64,000 bases of DNA from Lactobacillus taiwanensis DSM 21401 (GTDB lineage: Bacteria; Bacillota; Bacilli; Lactobacillales; Lactobacillaceae), in assembly GCF_001436695.1 (NCBI RefSeq), contig NZ_AYZG01000001.1:62001-126000 (forward strand), given 5' to 3'. The translations under genes and the position numbers were made by a program. Below the pieces are notes generated by a model that saw only the letters and a program-made list of their open reading frames with translations, was not told the origin of the DNA and ran no database searches. The stretch's first letter is position 1; every line of letters starts with the position of its first letter. This document shows, piece after piece, positions 11,646 through 53,312 of the stretch.

Positions 11646-12410
11646 TTAATCATCAAAATAAGCATAAAGATCACTTACTTTTAATTTCTTTTTTTCTGGC
11701 TCATTAATATCAACCTTAACTCTCCCATCCTTTAAAACTAAAAGACGATTTCCATATTTTAAAGCATCTTCCATATGGTGCGTAATCATTAAGGCAGTCA
11801 GTTTATTTTCCTTAATCTGCTTATCAGTTACAGCTAATAAATTTTCACTAGTATGTGGATCTAGAGCTGCCGTATGTTCATCTAAGAGTAAAATATCAGG
11901 CCTTTCAATAGTTGCCATCAGAAAGCTCAATGCTTGTCTTTGTCCTCCAGATAAGCCTTCGACAAAGCTATTCAACCGATTTTCTAAACCGTTATTCATC
12001 ACCCTAGCCATTTCTTTAAAATGAGGAATGTTTTCTTTCAATTTTCTAATCTTTAAAAATCTTTTTTTCCCTCTATTGGTGGCTAATAGTAAATTTTCAG
12101 CCACTGTCATTCTTGGAGCAGTTCCCATTTTAGGATCTTGAAAAACTCGTCCAATAAACTGAGTTCTTTTTTCTTCACTCATCTTAGTAATATCTTGACC
12201 ATCATGAAGAATCTGACCGCTATCTGGTTTTAAACTACCTGCAATTGTGTTAAATAATGTAGATTTTCCCGCACCATTAGTTCCAATAATTGTAATAAAA
12301 TCACCAGATTTAATTTTTAAATTAATCCCTTTTAAAATAGGAATAATTTCGCCATCCGCTGTTTTAACAGTAGTTTTTACATCTTTTAATTCTAGAGTTG
12401 ATTTAGTCAT
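11646..12410 (-). CDS. ABC transporter ATPase (TrpZ-like)
   Basis: This is the 254-residue nucleotide-binding subunit of an importer whose partners are the next two genes upstream. Visible motifs are Walker A GTNGAGKST near residue 42, the signature VEGLSGGQRQALS, Walker B DILLLDEHTAALDP, and the H-loop MITHHME. It belongs with the COG1101/COG4120/COG2984 type importers that include streptococcal TrpXYZ, which has been linked to tryptophan uptake. Its start overlaps the permease end by eight bases, so translation is coupled. Confidence 0.88.
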   Translation of the reverse strand: MTKSTLELKDVKTTVKTADGEIIPILKGINLKIKSGDFITIIGTNGAGKSTLFNTIAGSLKPDSGQILHDGQDITKMSEEKRTQFIGRVFQDPKMGTAPRMTVAENLLLATNRGKKRFLKIRKLKENIPHFKEMARVMNNGLENRLNSFVEGLSGGQRQALSFLMATIERPDILLLDEHTAALDPHTSENLLAVTDKQIKENKLTALMITHHMEDALKYGNRLLVLKDGRVKVDINEPEKKKLKVSDLYAYFDD

Positions 12411-13302
12411 GCTTGTTTACACCTCTCTTTATCGGCTTTTTTAAATGCGTAACTTTTTCAAGTTGTGGCAGCATCATGCAAAGTGCCAAGACAATTGAAG
12501 AAATTAAATTCAAATCATTAGCAGAAAATCCTAACTGTAATACTGCTAATAAAATCAAACGATAAATAATACTGCCTAAAGTTACAGCTACTAATCGCTG
12601 ATTTAAAGTTAATTCACCAAATGCTACTTCACCGATGATAATTGAAGCTAGAGCAATAACAATAGTTCCAATTCCCATATTAATATCAGCATAACCATTA
12701 TTTTGCGCAATTAATGCTCCACATAAGGCAACTATTCCGTTTGAAAGCATTAAACCAATAATTACCATAAAATCTGTATGGATACCTAATGATTTCGCCA
12801 TCTTAGGGTTATCACCTGTTGCAATAAACGCTTGACCAAAATCTGTATTTAAAAAGAAAATCAATATCCCAGTAATTACAACTACGATTCCAATTCCTAG
12901 AAAAACACTATTAAAATATTGAGGTAAATTTTCTAAAAATTCATTGTTGAGTAATGTCTTCTTACCAATCAGTGAAATATTAGAACCGCCCATAATTCTT
13001 AAATTAATAGAATAAATTGCCGTCATTGTTAAAATACCAGCAAGTAGAATTGGAATTTTTCCTTTTGTATACAAAAGCCCCGTCACTAATCCAGCTATCA
13101 TTCCTGCAACAAACGCTAATAATGTTGCTAAATAAGGCGACATACCATGTGAAATATTAGCAACAGCAACAGCCGCTCCTAGGGGAAAAGTACCTTCTAC
13201 TGTCATATCAGCAAAATTTAAAATTCTAAAGGTTAAATACAGTCCTAATCCTAAAAGTGCCCATAGTAATCCTTGGCCAATTGCAGATACAATTAAATTC
13301 AT
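12403..13302 (-). CDS. ABC transporter permease (TrpY-like)
   Basis: This 299-residue membrane protein has about eight to nine hydrophobic segments and resembles branched-chain/ribose type permeases of COG4120. The start MNLIVSAIGQGLLWALLGLGLYLTF and the ADMTVEGTFPLGAAV segment are typical of that family. It overlaps the substrate-binding gene by four bases (ATGA) and the ATPase gene by eight, making a tightly coupled three-gene operon. Confidence 0.88.
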   Translation of the reverse strand: MNLIVSAIGQGLLWALLGLGLYLTFRILNFADMTVEGTFPLGAAVAVANISHGMSPYLATLLAFVAGMIAGLVTGLLYTKGKIPILLAGILTMTAIYSINLRIMGGSNISLIGKKTLLNNEFLENLPQYFNSVFLGIGIVVVITGILIFFLNTDFGQAFIATGDNPKMAKSLGIHTDFMVIIGLMLSNGIVALCGALIAQNNGYADINMGIGTIVIALASIIIGEVAFGELTLNQRLVAVTLGSIIYRLILLAVLQLGFSANDLNLISSIVLALCMMLPQLEKVTHLKKPIKRGVNKHD

Positions 13303-14291
13303 TTATATACAACTCCTTTTCTCTGACAATCTTTAAGAAATCTTGCAGGAATTTGCAAATTTAATTTTCTAGCTTCTTTTAAATTAACAATTGGTTCTCC
13401 CGTTTTCACTCTCTCAACTGGTAAAGAACTAACTTTTTTACCCTTTAAAATTTCAATAGTCATCTTTCCAGTCATTTTTCCTAACTCATATTGATTAACA
13501 CTATAAGTTGCAAGACCACCTTGTTTTACCATAGTTGCTGCAGCAGGGAAAATTGGCTTTTTAACAACATTTCCATTTTTAACAAGAGTTTCCATTGCTC
13601 CGGCAATAGTATTGTCAGTTGGAACAATTACAGCGTCTACTTGACTAAACATTTGCTCCGAAACTTGATTAAGATCATTGCTATTAGCAATTGAAAAAGA
13701 CTTTAAATTTATTTCTCTCTTTTTACATTCACGCTCAATCTCATGAAAGCCGCTAACTGCAGAAGAATCACTAGAAGTATAAATTACTCCTAAAGTCTTT
13801 AAATTAGGTAAAAATTCCCTAATTAAATCCAATTGTTGCCTAATTGGAGCAGCATCTGATACACCAGTAATATTTTTTTCGGGATGTCTTTCATTTTTTA
13901 CTAGCCCACTAGTTTTTGGACTTGTTACAGCACCTAAAACTATTGGAATCTTATTGGTTGTATTCGCCAATGCTTGGGCAGCTGGAGTAGTAATTCCAAC
14001 TAATACTCTTGACTCCTCATCAGTTAGCTTTGTTGCCATCGTACGTAAATTACTCTGATCATTATTTGCATTTTGATAGTCAATTTTGATATTTTTTCCA
14101 TTTACGTAGCCCTCTTCTTTCAGCTCATCTCGAAAGCCGCGATATATCTCATCAAGAGCCGGGTGACGCATAAGAGTTAAGACACCAACTCGGGGAATTT
14201 TATTATTTTCTTCTTTTTGTTTATTTTCTCCAAAAAAAGCTATGGTTAGAAAAGCTACTAAAATTACAATTAATCCATACATTCTTTTCAT
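13299..14291 (-). CDS. ABC transporter substrate-binding protein (TrpX-like)
   Basis: This 330-residue extracytoplasmic binding protein (ABC_sub_bind, COG2984) opens with a hydrophobic segment of about residues 4-19. That segment has no lipobox cysteine, so the protein is probably held by an uncleaved signal anchor or released, which is unusual for a Gram-positive binding protein. The core VGVLTLMRHPALDEIY and VGITTPAAQALA is family-typical. Streptococcal TrpX is the closest characterised relative I know. A Trp codon in the leader peptide upstream supports a tryptophan or related aromatic substrate, but that is inference. Confidence 0.85.
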   Translation of the reverse strand: MKRMYGLIVILVAFLTIAFFGENKQKEENNKIPRVGVLTLMRHPALDEIYRGFRDELKEEGYVNGKNIKIDYQNANNDQSNLRTMATKLTDEESRVLVGITTPAAQALANTTNKIPIVLGAVTSPKTSGLVKNERHPEKNITGVSDAAPIRQQLDLIREFLPNLKTLGVIYTSSDSSAVSGFHEIERECKKREINLKSFSIANSNDLNQVSEQMFSQVDAVIVPTDNTIAGAMETLVKNGNVVKKPIFPAAATMVKQGGLATYSVNQYELGKMTGKMTIEILKGKKVSSLPVERVKTGEPIVNLKEARKLNLQIPARFLKDCQRKGVVYK

Positions 14292-14302
14292 AATTTTTCT
14301 CC

Positions 14303-14341
14303 AAAAAAACAGGAATCTATTTTCACATGCAGATTCCTGTT
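14303..14341 (-). terminator. Leader terminator 2 of the TrpX-like operon
   Basis: Perfect arms at 14331-14340 and 14309-14318 (ACAGGAATCT / AGATTCCTGT) have a 12-base loop and are followed by seven T residues on the minus strand. It ends only about 12 bases before the first gene of the operon. Its 5' arm and loop contain TCTGCATG, the same octamer as in the 5' arm of terminator 1. Confidence 0.85.
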
Positions 14342-14353
14342 ACTTTTTTATCA

Positions 14354-14391
14354 CAAAAAGAAAAAGGTCTGCATGTTACTCCATGCAGACC
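14354..14391 (-). terminator. Leader terminator 1 of the TrpX-like operon
   Basis: Perfect 10-bp stem GGTCTGCATG / CATGCAGACC (14382-14391 with 14366-14375), a 6-base loop and a TTTTTCTTTTT tail. It is an intrinsic terminator placed inside the leader, about 70 bases after the leader-peptide stop codon. Confidence 0.88.
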
Positions 14392-14431
14392 ACAATAAAT
14401 ACACAGCCAGCACAGATACAATCTGAATCTT

Positions 14432-14459
14432 TCAGGTTGCATCTTGCTTAACAACCTGA
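14432..14459 (-). promoter_or_regulatory. Leader hairpin A, possible attenuator switch element
   Basis: The arms TCAGGTTG and CAACCTGA (8 bp, 12-base loop) begin one base after the leader-peptide stop codon. The 3' side, ATGCAACC at 14442-14435, can instead pair with GGTCTGCAT at 14391-14383 (8 bp with one bulged C), which would block terminator 1. A ribosome sitting on the stop codon would cover the 5' arm. Confidence 0.6.
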
Positions 14460-14460
14460 T

Positions 14461-14511
14461 TTACTGGCCTTGCCAACGATTAATTTTCATAAACTTAGCT
14501 TGTGTATTCAT
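14461..14511 (-). CDS. Leader peptide with a single Trp codon
   Basis: The 16-codon frame encodes MNTQAKFMKINRWQGQ. It has a strong SD (AAGGAG, nine bases before ATG) and sits about 25 bases downstream of the predicted transcription start. It carries one Trp codon at position 13 (14475-14473), three residues before the C-terminus. A peptide this short, between a consensus promoter and two tandem terminators ahead of a TrpXYZ-type importer, is best explained as a regulatory leader. I do not recognise it as a described family. Confidence 0.65.
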   Translation of the reverse strand: MNTQAKFMKINRWQGQ

Positions 14512-14541
14512 AATTAACTACTCCTTAAAAAATTTAATTAT

Positions 14542-14570
14542 ATTGTAATTGGCTTATATTTTTCTGTCAA
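14542..14570 (-). promoter_or_regulatory. Promoter of the leader and TrpX-like operon
   Basis: TTGACA (14570-14565), a 17-base spacer and TACAAT (14547-14542) give a near-consensus sigma-A promoter. Transcription should start near 14535 and yield a leader of about 240 bases. It lies directly after the glyA stop codon seen from the other side and needs no activator by appearance, which points to control by attenuation. Confidence 0.85.
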
Positions 14571-14576
14571 TAGCTT

Positions 14577-15812
14577 TTATTTGATAGGATATTTCTGAAC
14601 TAAATCCTTAATTCTTTCTTTTGCCTGAGCCAATACTTCTGTATCTTCAGGATTATCCAAAACTTCAATAATTATTTTAGCCACTTCTTTAGCATCAGAT
14701 TCCTTAAAGCCTCGGCTAGTTATTGCTGGTGTTCCAATTCTTAATCCACTAGCAATAAATGGGCTTCGCTTATCACCAGGAATAGACTCTTTGTTAGTTG
14801 TAATATTTACTGAGTCCAGTAAATTTTGGGCATCTTTTCCCGTTATACCAGTATTGGTAATATCAATAATCATCAAGTGGTTATCAGTTCCACCTGAAAT
14901 CACGCGAATCTTTTTGCTATTTTTAAATTCTTCAGCCATGGCTTTCGAATTTTTAATTACTTGATTAATGTATTGGGTAAATTCCGGCTGCAAATCTTCA
15001 TAAAAAGCCTGAGCTTTAGCAGCAATAACATGTTCCAAGGGACCACCTTGTGTACCTGGAAAAAGAGCAGAATCAATTTTTTTACTTAATTCTTTATTAT
15101 TAGATAAAATCATCCCTCCACGTGGACCACGCAAAGTCTTATGGGTAGTGGTAGTTACAACATCAGCAACTGGAAGTGGACTTGGATGAGCACCCACTGC
15201 AACTAAACCTGCAATATGGGCCATATCAACCATTAAATAAGCACCAACTTCATCAGCAATATCGCGAAATTTTTGCCAGTCAATAATTCTGCTATATGCG
15301 GAAGCACCAGCAATAATTAATTTAGGCTTATTTTCTAAAGCAATCTGATGAATTTTATCAAAATCTAACTCTTCAGTTTCTGGATTTAGGTCATAACTAA
15401 CAGAATTAAAAATTTTTCCTGAAAAATTAACTTTTGAGCCATGGGTAAGGTGGCCCCCTGCATCCATTCCCATCCCCAAAATTGTATCTCCTGGTTTTAA
15501 TAGAGCATTGTAAACAGTCATATTAGCTTGTGACCCAGAGTGTGGTTGAACATTCACATATTCTGCATTAAATAATTTTTTAGCATAGTCAATCGCCAAT
15601 TGTTCTACTTGATCAATATATTGACAGCCACCGTAATATCTTTTACCGGGATATCCTTCTGCATATTTATTAGTTAAAACTGAACCTTGTGCTTCTCTGA
15701 CAGCATCGGAAACAATATTTTCTGATGCAATTAACTCTATGGTATCTTCTTGCCTTTTTTCTTCATTCTTAATTGCATCCCAAAGTGCTGGTGCTTTCTC
15801 TCCATAATTCAT
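14577..15812 (-). CDS. glyA: Serine hydroxymethyltransferase
   Basis: This PLP enzyme of 411 residues converts serine and tetrahydrofolate to glycine and 5,10-methylene-tetrahydrofolate. The PLP-lysine motif [14 protein letters not shown] near residue 225, the start [10 protein letters not shown] and the [15 protein letters not shown] segment are all present. It lies upstream of the TrpX-like leader on the same strand without an obvious terminator between them. The leader promoter starts within ten bases of the glyA end, so some read-through into the leader is possible. Confidence 0.97.
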
Positions 15813-30541: not shown

Positions 30542-30806
30542 ATAAACAAAAAACGCCCTACTAGATCAACTTGATCTAATAGGGCGTTTATTACGCGGTA
30601 CCACCTATTCTTCGTTAGCAAAAAATACTAACCTCATGCACGTGCGGCCAATCAAATGATTAGCGATACGTCGCCGCTATAAAGGGCGGCCCCTGAAAAT
30701 ACTAATTGTCGTACTTTCCGCTCAAAGGTGATTTTCACGTAAAACTCGGCCGTCTTCTCACACCAAACGAAGATTCTCTGAAGACCACATTTCATGTTAC
30801 TTTCCT
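30542..30806 (-). ncRNA. T-box leader (tRNA-sensing riboswitch) of the oppA operon
   Basis: On the minus strand, a stem I region with the AG/GNUG-type elements (AGAGAA, TTTGGTGTGAG) near 30785-30755 is followed by the canonical T-box sequence AATAGGTGGTACCGCG at about 30609-30594. A terminator, AACGCCCTA / TAGGGCGTT followed by TTTTTT, lies at 30547-30590. Base pairing of the T-box with uncharged tRNA 3' ends would favour the antiterminator. The specifier lies in GTGAAAATCACC (30738-30727), so candidates are AAT (Asn) or ATC (Ile); I could not decide. Confidence 0.92.
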
Positions 30807-31200
30807 TATCAAAGCTAAACTGTTATTTTTGTTAAAAATAATAATATCAAAAACAAATTATATGTCAATATAAATTTAATAAAAAAATAATTTTAATGTC
30901 ATTTAGATATTCTCTCGTTTCTTTCGATTAACTATGTAAATACAAATTCTTTTTAGTAATTGTGGACGTTTTTTATTTTATAACGAAGTATTTGATTTCT
31001 GTTTCTTGCTTTTTCAATTAATCTCATACTTTGTGATATTTCTACTTATCAATCTATTCAGAATAGTCGCAAGTGCTTCCGCTATCCAAACTTTAGATTA
31101 TCTTTCTGGTAGGTTCCCTTCATAATAATGTAAAGTATTTTTTCAACTAAGCAAAATTTATATTATAATTTTAAGTAATCACTATTTAAGGTAATTACTT
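30807..31200. other. AT-rich intergenic stretch with a possible coding remnant
   Basis: There is no intact gene between the T-box promoter region and the UbiA gene. On the minus strand 31094-31014 reads an uninterrupted coding-like stretch KVWIAEALATILNRLISRN and then stops, with no start codon in frame, which suggests a decayed gene end of unknown family. The promoter of the T-box leader should lie around 30815-30850, and the UbiA promoter lies near 31150-31180. Confidence 0.35.
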
Positions 31201-32581: not shown

Positions 32582-32700
32582 TGTCCCCTCCTAAAAATAA
32601 GAGGAAAGAGGGACATCCTAGGAGGGAAGGTTACTGATATGAATAAATCATACATTCGGACTACCAACCGAATTGTGTTTTTACTTTCCTTAGCGTGTAT
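32582..32700 (-). promoter_or_regulatory. Probable yjdF-motif riboswitch with SD sequestration
   Basis: The 5' leader of yjdF holds a hairpin ATTCGG / CCGAAT near 32677-32656 flanked by AAGGAAAG upstream and a CCTTCC element downstream. Two segments, CCCTCCTA and ATGTCCCTC, can each pair with the SD region TAGGAGGGGACAT just before the ATG. That layout suits translational control. The gene identity makes the yjdF riboswitch class likely, but I could not match a full consensus. Confidence 0.55.
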
Positions 32701-36645: not shown

Positions 36646-36776
36646 ACTAATCCATATTCTGTTGCAAACAAATTTTCGTTATAATTATATCCGCAGAAAG
36701 TTTTATGAGCGGTGGCTGCTTTTCCTCCTGGAGGTGAGTCCTATGGACCGACATCAATCAGAAAGGGTTCAGCCAC

Positions 36777-36869
36777 ATGAGCGTGTACGAGGCTATCTCG
36801 TTAATGCTGTTGTTTGGTACTTTTGTGTTAGCTTTGCTAACATATATCGACAACCACAACAAAAAATAA
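36777..36869 (+). CDS. Holin-like small toxin (type I toxin-antitoxin candidate)
   Basis: The 30-residue frame starts MSVYEAISLMLLFGTFVLAL, followed by LTYIDNHNKK: one hydrophobic helix with a short charged tail, as in the holin-like toxin (Hol-Tox) family of lactobacilli and bacilli. AAGGG precedes the ATG by nine bases. The mRNA 5' region can fold GTGGCTG onto CAGCCAC just before the start, and an upstream CCTCC can mask GGAGG, as expected for a toxin held off by RNA structure. It lies in an intergenic transcript of about 300 bases with its own promoter and terminator. Confidence 0.75.
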   Translation: MSVYEAISLMLLFGTFVLALLTYIDNHNKK

Positions 36870-43690: not shown

Positions 43691-43719
43691 TTGTGTTCGG
43701 AAAATGATTCTGCTACACT
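43691..43719 (+). promoter_or_regulatory. Promoter of xpt-pbuX
   Basis: TTGTGT (43691-43696), a 17-base spacer ending in TGC and TACACT (43714-43719) make an extended -10 promoter. It lies about 20-30 bases upstream of the aptamer. Confidence 0.7.
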
Positions 43720-43735
43720 CTAAATATCAAAATAT

Positions 43736-43812
43736 CTATATATCGTCGTAATAAGGTCGACAGTTTCTACCCGGAACCAATTAATTCTGGACTATAGGTA
43801 ATCGATGTCATA
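43736..43812 (+). ncRNA. Guanine/xanthine-class purine riboswitch
   Basis: The conserved core is visible: GTTTCTACC in P2/J2-3, P3 as CCGGAA / TTCTGG, and the three-way-junction segment GACTATAG. The specificity base in GACTAT is C, which marks the guanine (not adenine) class. It controls xpt and pbuX through the terminator at 43827-43872. The P2 loop AATAAGG differs a little from the usual ATATGG, so affinity may differ. Confidence 0.92.
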
Positions 43813-43826
43813 AGTAGCAGTACAAA

Positions 43827-53112: not shown

Positions 53113-53312
53113 AAAAAAGCTTTTAATCTTATGATCGATAGCGCTCCGCGAATTTTGATTTTCGCGACAGTTTGCAGTCTCTTAAACTACAACCCAGCAA
53201 ATAATATTTCGGCAAGATATTATCACTTCGGCAACTTTCCCTTTCACAATTAATCATAGTTTTGCCAAACTCATAATTGCTACTATTGTCAGTTGCGCCT
53301 CTTCGAATTTAA
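53113..53312 (-). ncRNA. Lysine riboswitch (L-box)
   Basis: On the minus strand the conserved parts appear in order: GAGGCGCAACTGACAATAGTA at the P1/P2 side (53304-53284), GGGAAAGTTGCCGAAG, the GCTGGGTTGTAGTTTAAGA segment, AGACTGC and the closing AGCGCTA. The long P2-P5 arms are present. Lysine binding should favour the terminator at 53080-53112 and shut off lysA to asd. Confidence 0.93.

Follow-up and report, generated by a model that had tools for sequence, protein, structure and literature searches.

In the trp, phe, his and leu attenuators of enterobacteria, a short leader peptide with codons for the regulated amino acid is combined with alternative RNA helices and an intrinsic terminator. 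Firmicutes are thought of chiefly as users of T-boxes and TRAP.

Leader-peptide attenuators have been described in general terms (PMC9413887), and histidine versions, in which His-codon leaders stand before his operons or hisS together with a terminator and an antiterminator, as in the His copies below, have been reported for the Bacillus cereus group, some Eubacteriales and Erysipelotrichales (Rodionov et al. 2022, PMC9413887) and 5' of hisS paralogues (Naville and Gautheret 2010, PMC2965389); the presence of such attenuators in Firmicutes is therefore no novelty as such. In the available portions of these two papers, no link is made to the trpB motif or to aromatic or Leu versions on one scaffold. 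The trpB motif (RF04312; SRC-39-1), for which over 900 members are reported, entered the literature as a strong candidate riboswitch having an antiterminator in the right shoulder of P1, and its authors left room for a classic attenuator (PMC11109978). The trpX operon (trpXYZ) of Streptococcus suis is preceded by a Trp T-box (PMC9382623); trpX is not mentioned in the available portion of a T-box survey (PMC2494555).

Here we analyze the leader of trpX in a 64,000-nt stretch of the Lactobacillus taiwanensis DSM 21401 genome (the window). We conclude that this leader is, with a probability of about 0.9, a ribosome-mediated (leader-peptide) transcription attenuator for tryptophan uptake, a conclusion drawn from sequence comparison and folding. 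Like the enterobacterial attenuators, it has a short leader with cognate codons, alternative RNA helices and an intrinsic terminator; unlike them, it carries several specificities on one homologous scaffold, in Firmicutes, its OFF helices are nested (a:d' around c:d), and its tandem terminators appear linked. With the trpB motif it shares the hairpins c:d and terminator 1, the location of the antiterminator (right shoulder of P1), and the kind of gene downstream (ABC transporter, trpB); the leader peptide, helices a:d' and b:c, and the second terminator are present in the window and absent from the motif description in the available text (PMC11109978). Like the S. suis T-box, as far as that system is described in the available text (PMC9382623), it would turn on the same operon at low charged Trp-tRNA by way of transcription termination; the T-box binds tRNA directly, whereas here the sensor is a leader peptide, and no T-box was found. 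In the literature searched (mostly open-access, preprints excluded, some sources available in part), we found no description of a leader peptide for the trpB motif or Lactobacillales trpX, and, as far as searched, none of aromatic, His or Leu versions of an RF04312 leader peptide on one scaffold, of a split of the transporter family by leader type, or of a terminator relay. The His copies may overlap with the reported Firmicutes his attenuators.

Results

Organization of the trpX leader

The whole device lies on the minus strand, between a serine hydroxymethyltransferase gene (14577-15812) and trpX. The regulated gene, trpX (13299-14291), encodes a tryptophan ABC transporter substrate-binding protein (NF041285, NCBIfam; 467.9 bits, cut-off 390), and shares an operon with a permease gene that overlaps it (12403-13302; PF02653) and an ATPase gene (11646-12410; PF00005). 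The nearest named relatives of the TrpX protein are from uncultured Lactobacillus (96% and 95% identity) and L. johnsonii (94%).

A promoter-like site, TTGACA-17-TACAAT (14542-14570), matches consensus at 11 of 12 positions, and leaders of relatives, inspected by eye, likewise have TTGACA and a −10-like hexamer upstream. It is followed by a Shine-Dalgarno sequence, AAGGAG (14521-14526), and by a 16-codon leader peptide gene, MNTQAKFMKINRWQGQ* (14461-14511), which ends just 5' of hairpin A. The sole Trp codon of the leader peptide, at 14475-14473, is the sensor, and its last codons contain segment a (GGCCAG, 14464-14469), the anti-antiterminator, whose partner is d'. Hairpin A consists of segments b (14447-14459) and c (14432-14445), with TCAGGTTG (14459-14452) paired with CAACCTGA; c has either b or d as its partner. 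Segments d and d' (TTGTATCTGTG-CTGGCT, 14405-14421) have as partners either c and a (OFF) or, as antiterminator, the 5' arm of terminator 1 (ON). Terminator 1 (14391-14366) has 10 bp, followed by TTTTTCTTTTT and a U tract that runs to 14355; we denote its 5' arm and the start of its loop e (14391-14380) and its 3' arm f (14375-14366). Terminator 2 (14341-14308) has a T run behind it, and the top of its 5' arm together with its loop (TCTGCATG, from 14333) resembles e and can pair with f. Compared with shuffled sequences, the 246-nt leader is much more strongly structured (z −6.5, 0/200).

The initial annotation had proposed, at the same place, hairpin A, both terminators and two cross-pairings, one between hairpin A and terminator 1 and one between terminators 1 and 2, and all of these are present in the window sequence, read on the minus strand. 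Missing from it were the leader peptide (14511-14461), the segment at 14421-14405, and a ribosome on the Trp leader as trigger.

The Rfam model RF04312 aligns with the window over its full length (1-107; 47.2 bits, E 5e-6), an alignment that has the layout of the family: a P1 hairpin and then an intrinsic terminator, in a 5' UTR. The score is below the gathering cut-off of 59 bits, and we therefore treat the window RNA as a relative of RF04312, not, by Rfam's rule, as a member. Other Rfam families were rejected for this leader, since only RF04312 and chance matches were obtained; a T-box had no match in 14280-14580 at E up to 5, and the T-box of the window lies elsewhere (30577-30821). There is no tRNA gene near the attenuator. 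Other RNAs in the window are a yjdF (azaaromatic) riboswitch (32593-32694), an rli28-like RNA (36670-36848), and purine (43716-43814) and lysine (53130-53311) riboswitches.

Covariation of two alternative folds

We assessed the two folds in a sequence-only alignment of 24 diverse copies. In the OFF fold (a:d', c:d, e:f), 95.0% of cells are paired, compared with 85.7% for shuffled and 30.5-43.1% for slid versions, and both sides change in 20 of 28 pairs. In the ON fold (b:c, d-d':e), 89.5% of cells are paired (shuffled, 85.4%; slid, 27.8-47.9%), and both sides change in 10 of 24 pairs. The a:d' helix (alignment positions 9-15/111-117) has changes on both sides in 5 of 7 pairs; the ON helix d-d':e, taken alone, has 91.7% of cells paired and changes on both sides in 5 of 11 pairs.

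We also used a swap test, in which the RNAduplex energy of a segment with its native partner is compared with that of the same segment with partners from other leaders; this test and the folding analysis below used the 37 non-redundant leaders among the 179 copies with a script-called leader. The z values, which are not strict probabilities because many rows are related, were −9.3 for a:d, −11.1 for b:c, −11.8 for c:d, −4.1 for d:e and −16.7 for e:f. The covariation of the OFF and ON folds indicates that the antiterminator and terminator helices are mutually exclusive; competition between pairings, as such, had been anticipated in the initial annotation and is supported. The segment that covaries with the 5' arm of terminator 1 is TCTGTGCTGGCT, just downstream of the 3' side of hairpin A (the z of −4.1 above). 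By this comparative evidence the antiterminator is the segment at 14421-14405, next after hairpin A.

Covariation between terminators 1 and 2

The 3' arm of terminator 1 and the 5' arm and loop of terminator 2 contain CATGCAGA and TCTGCATG, which are complementary at 8 of 8 positions. For Lactobacillus, we tested the pairing of f with terminator 2 in 34 of 43 leaders (the other nine being those in which the script called no pair of terminators 1 and 2), reduced to 27 unique leaders; for leaders outside the genus, we used the 78 of 95 in which both terminators were called, after removal of genus members. The hairpins of L024 and L035 were chosen by hand. The pairing of f with terminator 2 gave a z of −4.7 in Lactobacillus (0/5000 permutations; better than swaps in 18 of 27) and −7.7 outside the genus (0/5000; better than swaps in 58 of 78), and f tested against the 75 nt downstream in the 37-leader set gave −5.8. 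The results indicate that the pairing is conserved and covarying both within and outside Lactobacillus. The octamer shared by the two terminators, which had been thought selected for this pairing, is exact only in the nearest relatives; in other leaders a different sequence preserves the pairing.

Since the link is conserved and covarying, a two-terminator relay is plausible: with e taken by d-d', f is free. It is possible, if less likely than a relay, that there is none, and that terminator 2 works on its own, as a second terminator or to protect the mRNA, with its likeness to e a remnant of duplication or gene conversion. Near relatives do have long exact shared stretches (TCTGCATGGA occurs in both terminators of L007-L009), many other Lactobacillus leaders retain about 6 bp, mostly in the loop, and outside Lactobacillus e itself gives a smaller signal with the 5' arm of terminator 2 (z −3.5; 0.3 within the genus), which is perhaps compositional. 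However, the likeness is confined to the top of the 5' arm and the loop, which in Lactobacillus mimic e (CCTGTA facing TGCAGG in L029; CCTGCA facing TGCGGG in L020); between f and terminator 2's 3' arm there is no link (z 0.3 in Lactobacillus, −0.2 outside), and the f:terminator 2 link persists from clade to clade in changing sequence. Pairing of d directly with terminator 2 was rejected, there being no signal in Lactobacillus (z 0.9) or outside it (z 2.1), and this too speaks against that alternative. The pairing of f with terminator 2 may help read-through or may be a by-product of partial duplication. A relay, if real, would be a simple way of sharpening attenuation. A terminator-2-like hairpin was called in only 107 of 167 leaders.

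A leader peptide as the probable sensor

In all 43 trpX leaders of the genus that we inspected by eye, a Trp leader peptide lies just 5' of segment b. Among the 194 RF04312-located copies examined first, a script found 179 with a leader that follows a Shine-Dalgarno sequence and contains sensor codons for Trp or Tyr/Phe, vs. 178 of 3880 dinucleotide shuffles (4.6%). The RF04312 match begins downstream of the leader peptide, and leaders at RF04312 copies are independent evidence; leaders at copies found only with R1, a covariance model built in this analysis, are not, because the R1 training sequences included the sensor region. Seven leaders were missed by the Shine-Dalgarno filter and read by eye (L073, L075, L081, L107, L208, L371 and L382); that of L208 has no clear start codon.

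Frequent leader endings are WQSR*, WQSWRR* and QLNNYYFSYFR*. Shortly before the sensor, 129 of 228 unique leaders have LN (often QLN), encoded with all six Leu codons, which indicates selection on the peptide, at the protein level. The Ser codon of WQS or YFSYF, which lies inside segment a, is AGC in 127 of 130 cases, which indicates selection on the RNA. The window leader has both the Trp codon and the Shine-Dalgarno sequence, and among relatives the sensor residues match the gene class. This codon-level evidence of coding points to translation of the leader. Two trpX leaders of the genus (L017 and L018) end SWQFK* and WWQFK* and continue into a clearly different set of hairpins; these are a diverged version of the switch.

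To relate ribosome position to fold, we folded transcripts ending in the terminator 1 loop, in which the ribosome masked the RNA as far as 13 nt from the first nucleotide of the A-site codon. Over the 37 leaders, antiterminator pairs averaged 1.8 for RNA free of ribosomes, 7.9 for a ribosome whose A site contains the first sensor codon, and 3.9 for one at the stop codon. The switch is predicted in 26 of 37 leaders (18 to 27 over footprints of 9-17 nt) and is absent from the folding model in the other 11. When the ribosome was slid along the leader, the within-leader antiterminator peak fell at the Trp codon and the next codon in one-Trp leaders and spanned codons 0 to 3 in WQSW leaders; values climb again past the stop codon, out of reach of a translating ribosome. 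For the window leader the corresponding numbers of pairs are 0.0 (ribosome-free), 9.3 (Trp codon) and 5.7 (stop codon); since it keeps part of d:e at the stop codon, its OFF state there would be only partly clean. It has one Trp codon, which gives little leverage next to the tandem codons of a classic attenuator.

Sequence and comparison show the leader, the helices that compete, sensor codons that match their genes, and covariation between f and terminator 2; ribosome stalling, its coordination with RNA polymerase, termination itself and the relay we infer, as follows. With plentiful Trp-tRNA, the ribosome would complete the leader and halt at 14463-14461 or depart, c and/or a would hold d-d', and terminator 1 would form, and then terminator 2. 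With scarce Trp-tRNA, the ribosome would wait at the single Trp codon and cover segment a; b would then pair with c, the free d-d' would capture the 5' arm of terminator 1, and transcription would proceed into trpX and on into the permease and ATPase genes. Terminator 1's 3' arm, left without its partner, could then bind terminator 2 at the 5' arm and loop, and both terminators would be opened by the same decision. Because terminator 1 (−18.3 kcal/mol) is far stronger than d:e (−9.0 kcal/mol), the ON state must be kinetic, and the choice would fall while RNA polymerase is between e and f.

Exchange of sensor codons between gene classes

We tabulated leader class and downstream gene for 279 distinct copies, assigning gene classes by best match to annotated representatives. 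This set leaves aside 11 R1 loci at places already counted (ten and L303), 13 weak R1 loci (L287-L299), and other R1 loci falling on earlier places; seven of its leaders were read by eye. The leader is of Trp type in 173 copies, Tyr/Phe in 80, His in 11 and Leu in 4, with none of these in 11. Trp leaders precede trpB in 9 of 9 cases and the TrpP-like gene in the one case found; Tyr/Phe leaders precede aroE in 19 of 19 cases and one DAHP synthase gene (L348); His leaders precede hisS or hisZ in 11 of 11 cases. NSS transporter genes lie behind Tyr/Phe leaders (15) and Leu leaders (4). Genes for TrpX-family binding proteins lie behind 154 Trp leaders and 35 Tyr/Phe leaders (33 called by script, 2 by eye). 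A mixed-codon leader, RYYWFS, lies upstream of two transketolase genes (L110 and L111); the transketolase product erythrose 4-phosphate feeds all aromatic amino acids. In another family, f137, for which one copy (L052) had been found previously, there are His runs (HHHR*, HHHH*) 5' of hisZ or hisS and Leu runs (LLLLANLR*) 5' of NSS transporter genes, as well as Tyr/Phe leaders.

The leader codons also predict the transporter cargo, in that binding proteins split by Trp vs. Tyr/Phe leader. In a FastTree tree of 183 binding proteins, with long branches flagged, there is a single change of leader type, on a fully supported branch. The NCBI TrpX cut-off is passed by TrpX of the window and by the proteins of L140 and L195, all with Trp leaders, and 7 of 7 Tyr/Phe-leader proteins scanned fall below it (L122, whose protein is cut by the end of its locus, L221, L242, L359, L378, L398 and L389).

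Eight of the 11 copies with no such leader (L054, L055, L114, L121, L130, L215, L248 and L278) lie beside unrelated genes and look like chance matches on neighbouring terminators. Two others (L126 and L128, 5' of genes for an SBP_bac_3 protein and an OppA-like protein) have leaders ending NIRLRSQ and NIRLRSR, in which the aromatic codons are replaced, with Leu at the Trp position and Arg at the next; these may represent a sensor variant for Leu or Arg. The last (L124) is a weak, doubtful match with a possible Leu-rich leader, LLDLHLFLLI, before a gene that by eye resembles that for an L-2-hydroxyacid dehydrogenase.

Nascent-peptide arrest of the TnaC type, in which the peptide and the free amino acid, not a lack of charged tRNA, would stall the ribosome, is improbable: the protein-level conservation of QLN or LN just before the sensor and the single Trp of some leaders are what such a system would have, but the N-terminal half is otherwise variable, the sensor residues differ (W, Y, F, H, L), HHHH and LLLL runs fit codon sensing, and the regulated genes, being for uptake, synthesis and charging, should rise on starvation.

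The proposal made for the trpB motif, that the RNA is itself the receptor for tryptophan or a different amino-acid metabolite, we regard as very unlikely. The published candidacy cited above, the strong covariation and the terminator accord with a ligand-binding riboswitch. However, 268 of the 279 copies have a Trp, Tyr/Phe, His or Leu leader, with eight of the remaining 11 set aside above, the gene's amino acid is tracked by the leader codons and not by the RNA core, and genes of all four kinds (Trp, Tyr/Phe, His and Leu) stand behind a common RNA scaffold. Gene-matched sensor codons, covarying alternative folds, and a folding peak at the sensor codon together argue for an attenuator, not a ligand-binding riboswitch. 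The attenuator reading would give the orphan RNA family RF04312 a concrete mechanism, moving it from riboswitch candidate to leader-peptide attenuator.

Use of the 3' side of hairpin A as antiterminator for terminator 1, the first step of the cascade in the initial annotation, has hardly any probability left and was rejected: in the window this side (ATGCAACC) does pair with GGTCTGCAT, with one bulge, at −9.7 kcal/mol (vs. −4.9 kcal/mol with relatives' partners), about as strong as d:e, but c:e is unconserved, with a z of −0.7 and an advantage over swaps in 16 of the 37 non-redundant leaders. Of the proposal that one event disables both terminators, the link from terminator 1 to terminator 2 thus stands on covariation, and the step starting from hairpin A does not. 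The possibility that covariation would extend to the terminator stems alone, and not to the cross-pairings, turned out true for c:e and untrue for f:terminator 2.

Distribution among Lactobacillales and relatives

An RF04312-based search gave matches in 56 of 151 genomes of the family, 136 of 246 of the order and 12 of 59 of family f137. With R1, matches were obtained in 31 of 96 genomes of family f137 and in 92 of 118 genomes of the order Lactobacillales, so that most sampled genomes of the order carry the translated sensor. From one set of 20 retrieved stretches, L044-L050, remote paralogues or second matches, were left out. Wide spread over the phylum was rejected, with RF04312 matching in 5 and R1, mostly weakly, in 17 of 398 genomes; the strong R1 matches in the phylum set are in G000, G304, G352 and G419.

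We lean, by slightly better than even odds, towards a broader view: that one ancestral scaffold is a widespread re-codable Firmicutes sensor with a tandem-terminator relay, and that the trpB motif is this attenuator. If so, exchange of sensor codons with matching changes in a:d' would re-address the scaffold to Trp, Tyr/Phe, His or Leu genes, the device would be a translated counterpart of the T-box, and the released 3' arm of terminator 1 would disarm terminator 2.

Three genomes (G678, G726 and G793) contain both a Trp-type and a Tyr/Phe-type copy, separated by about 3 kb (L163/L258, L202/L235 and L158/L251), and each such couple, both types being in one genome, is a natural pair for specificity swaps.
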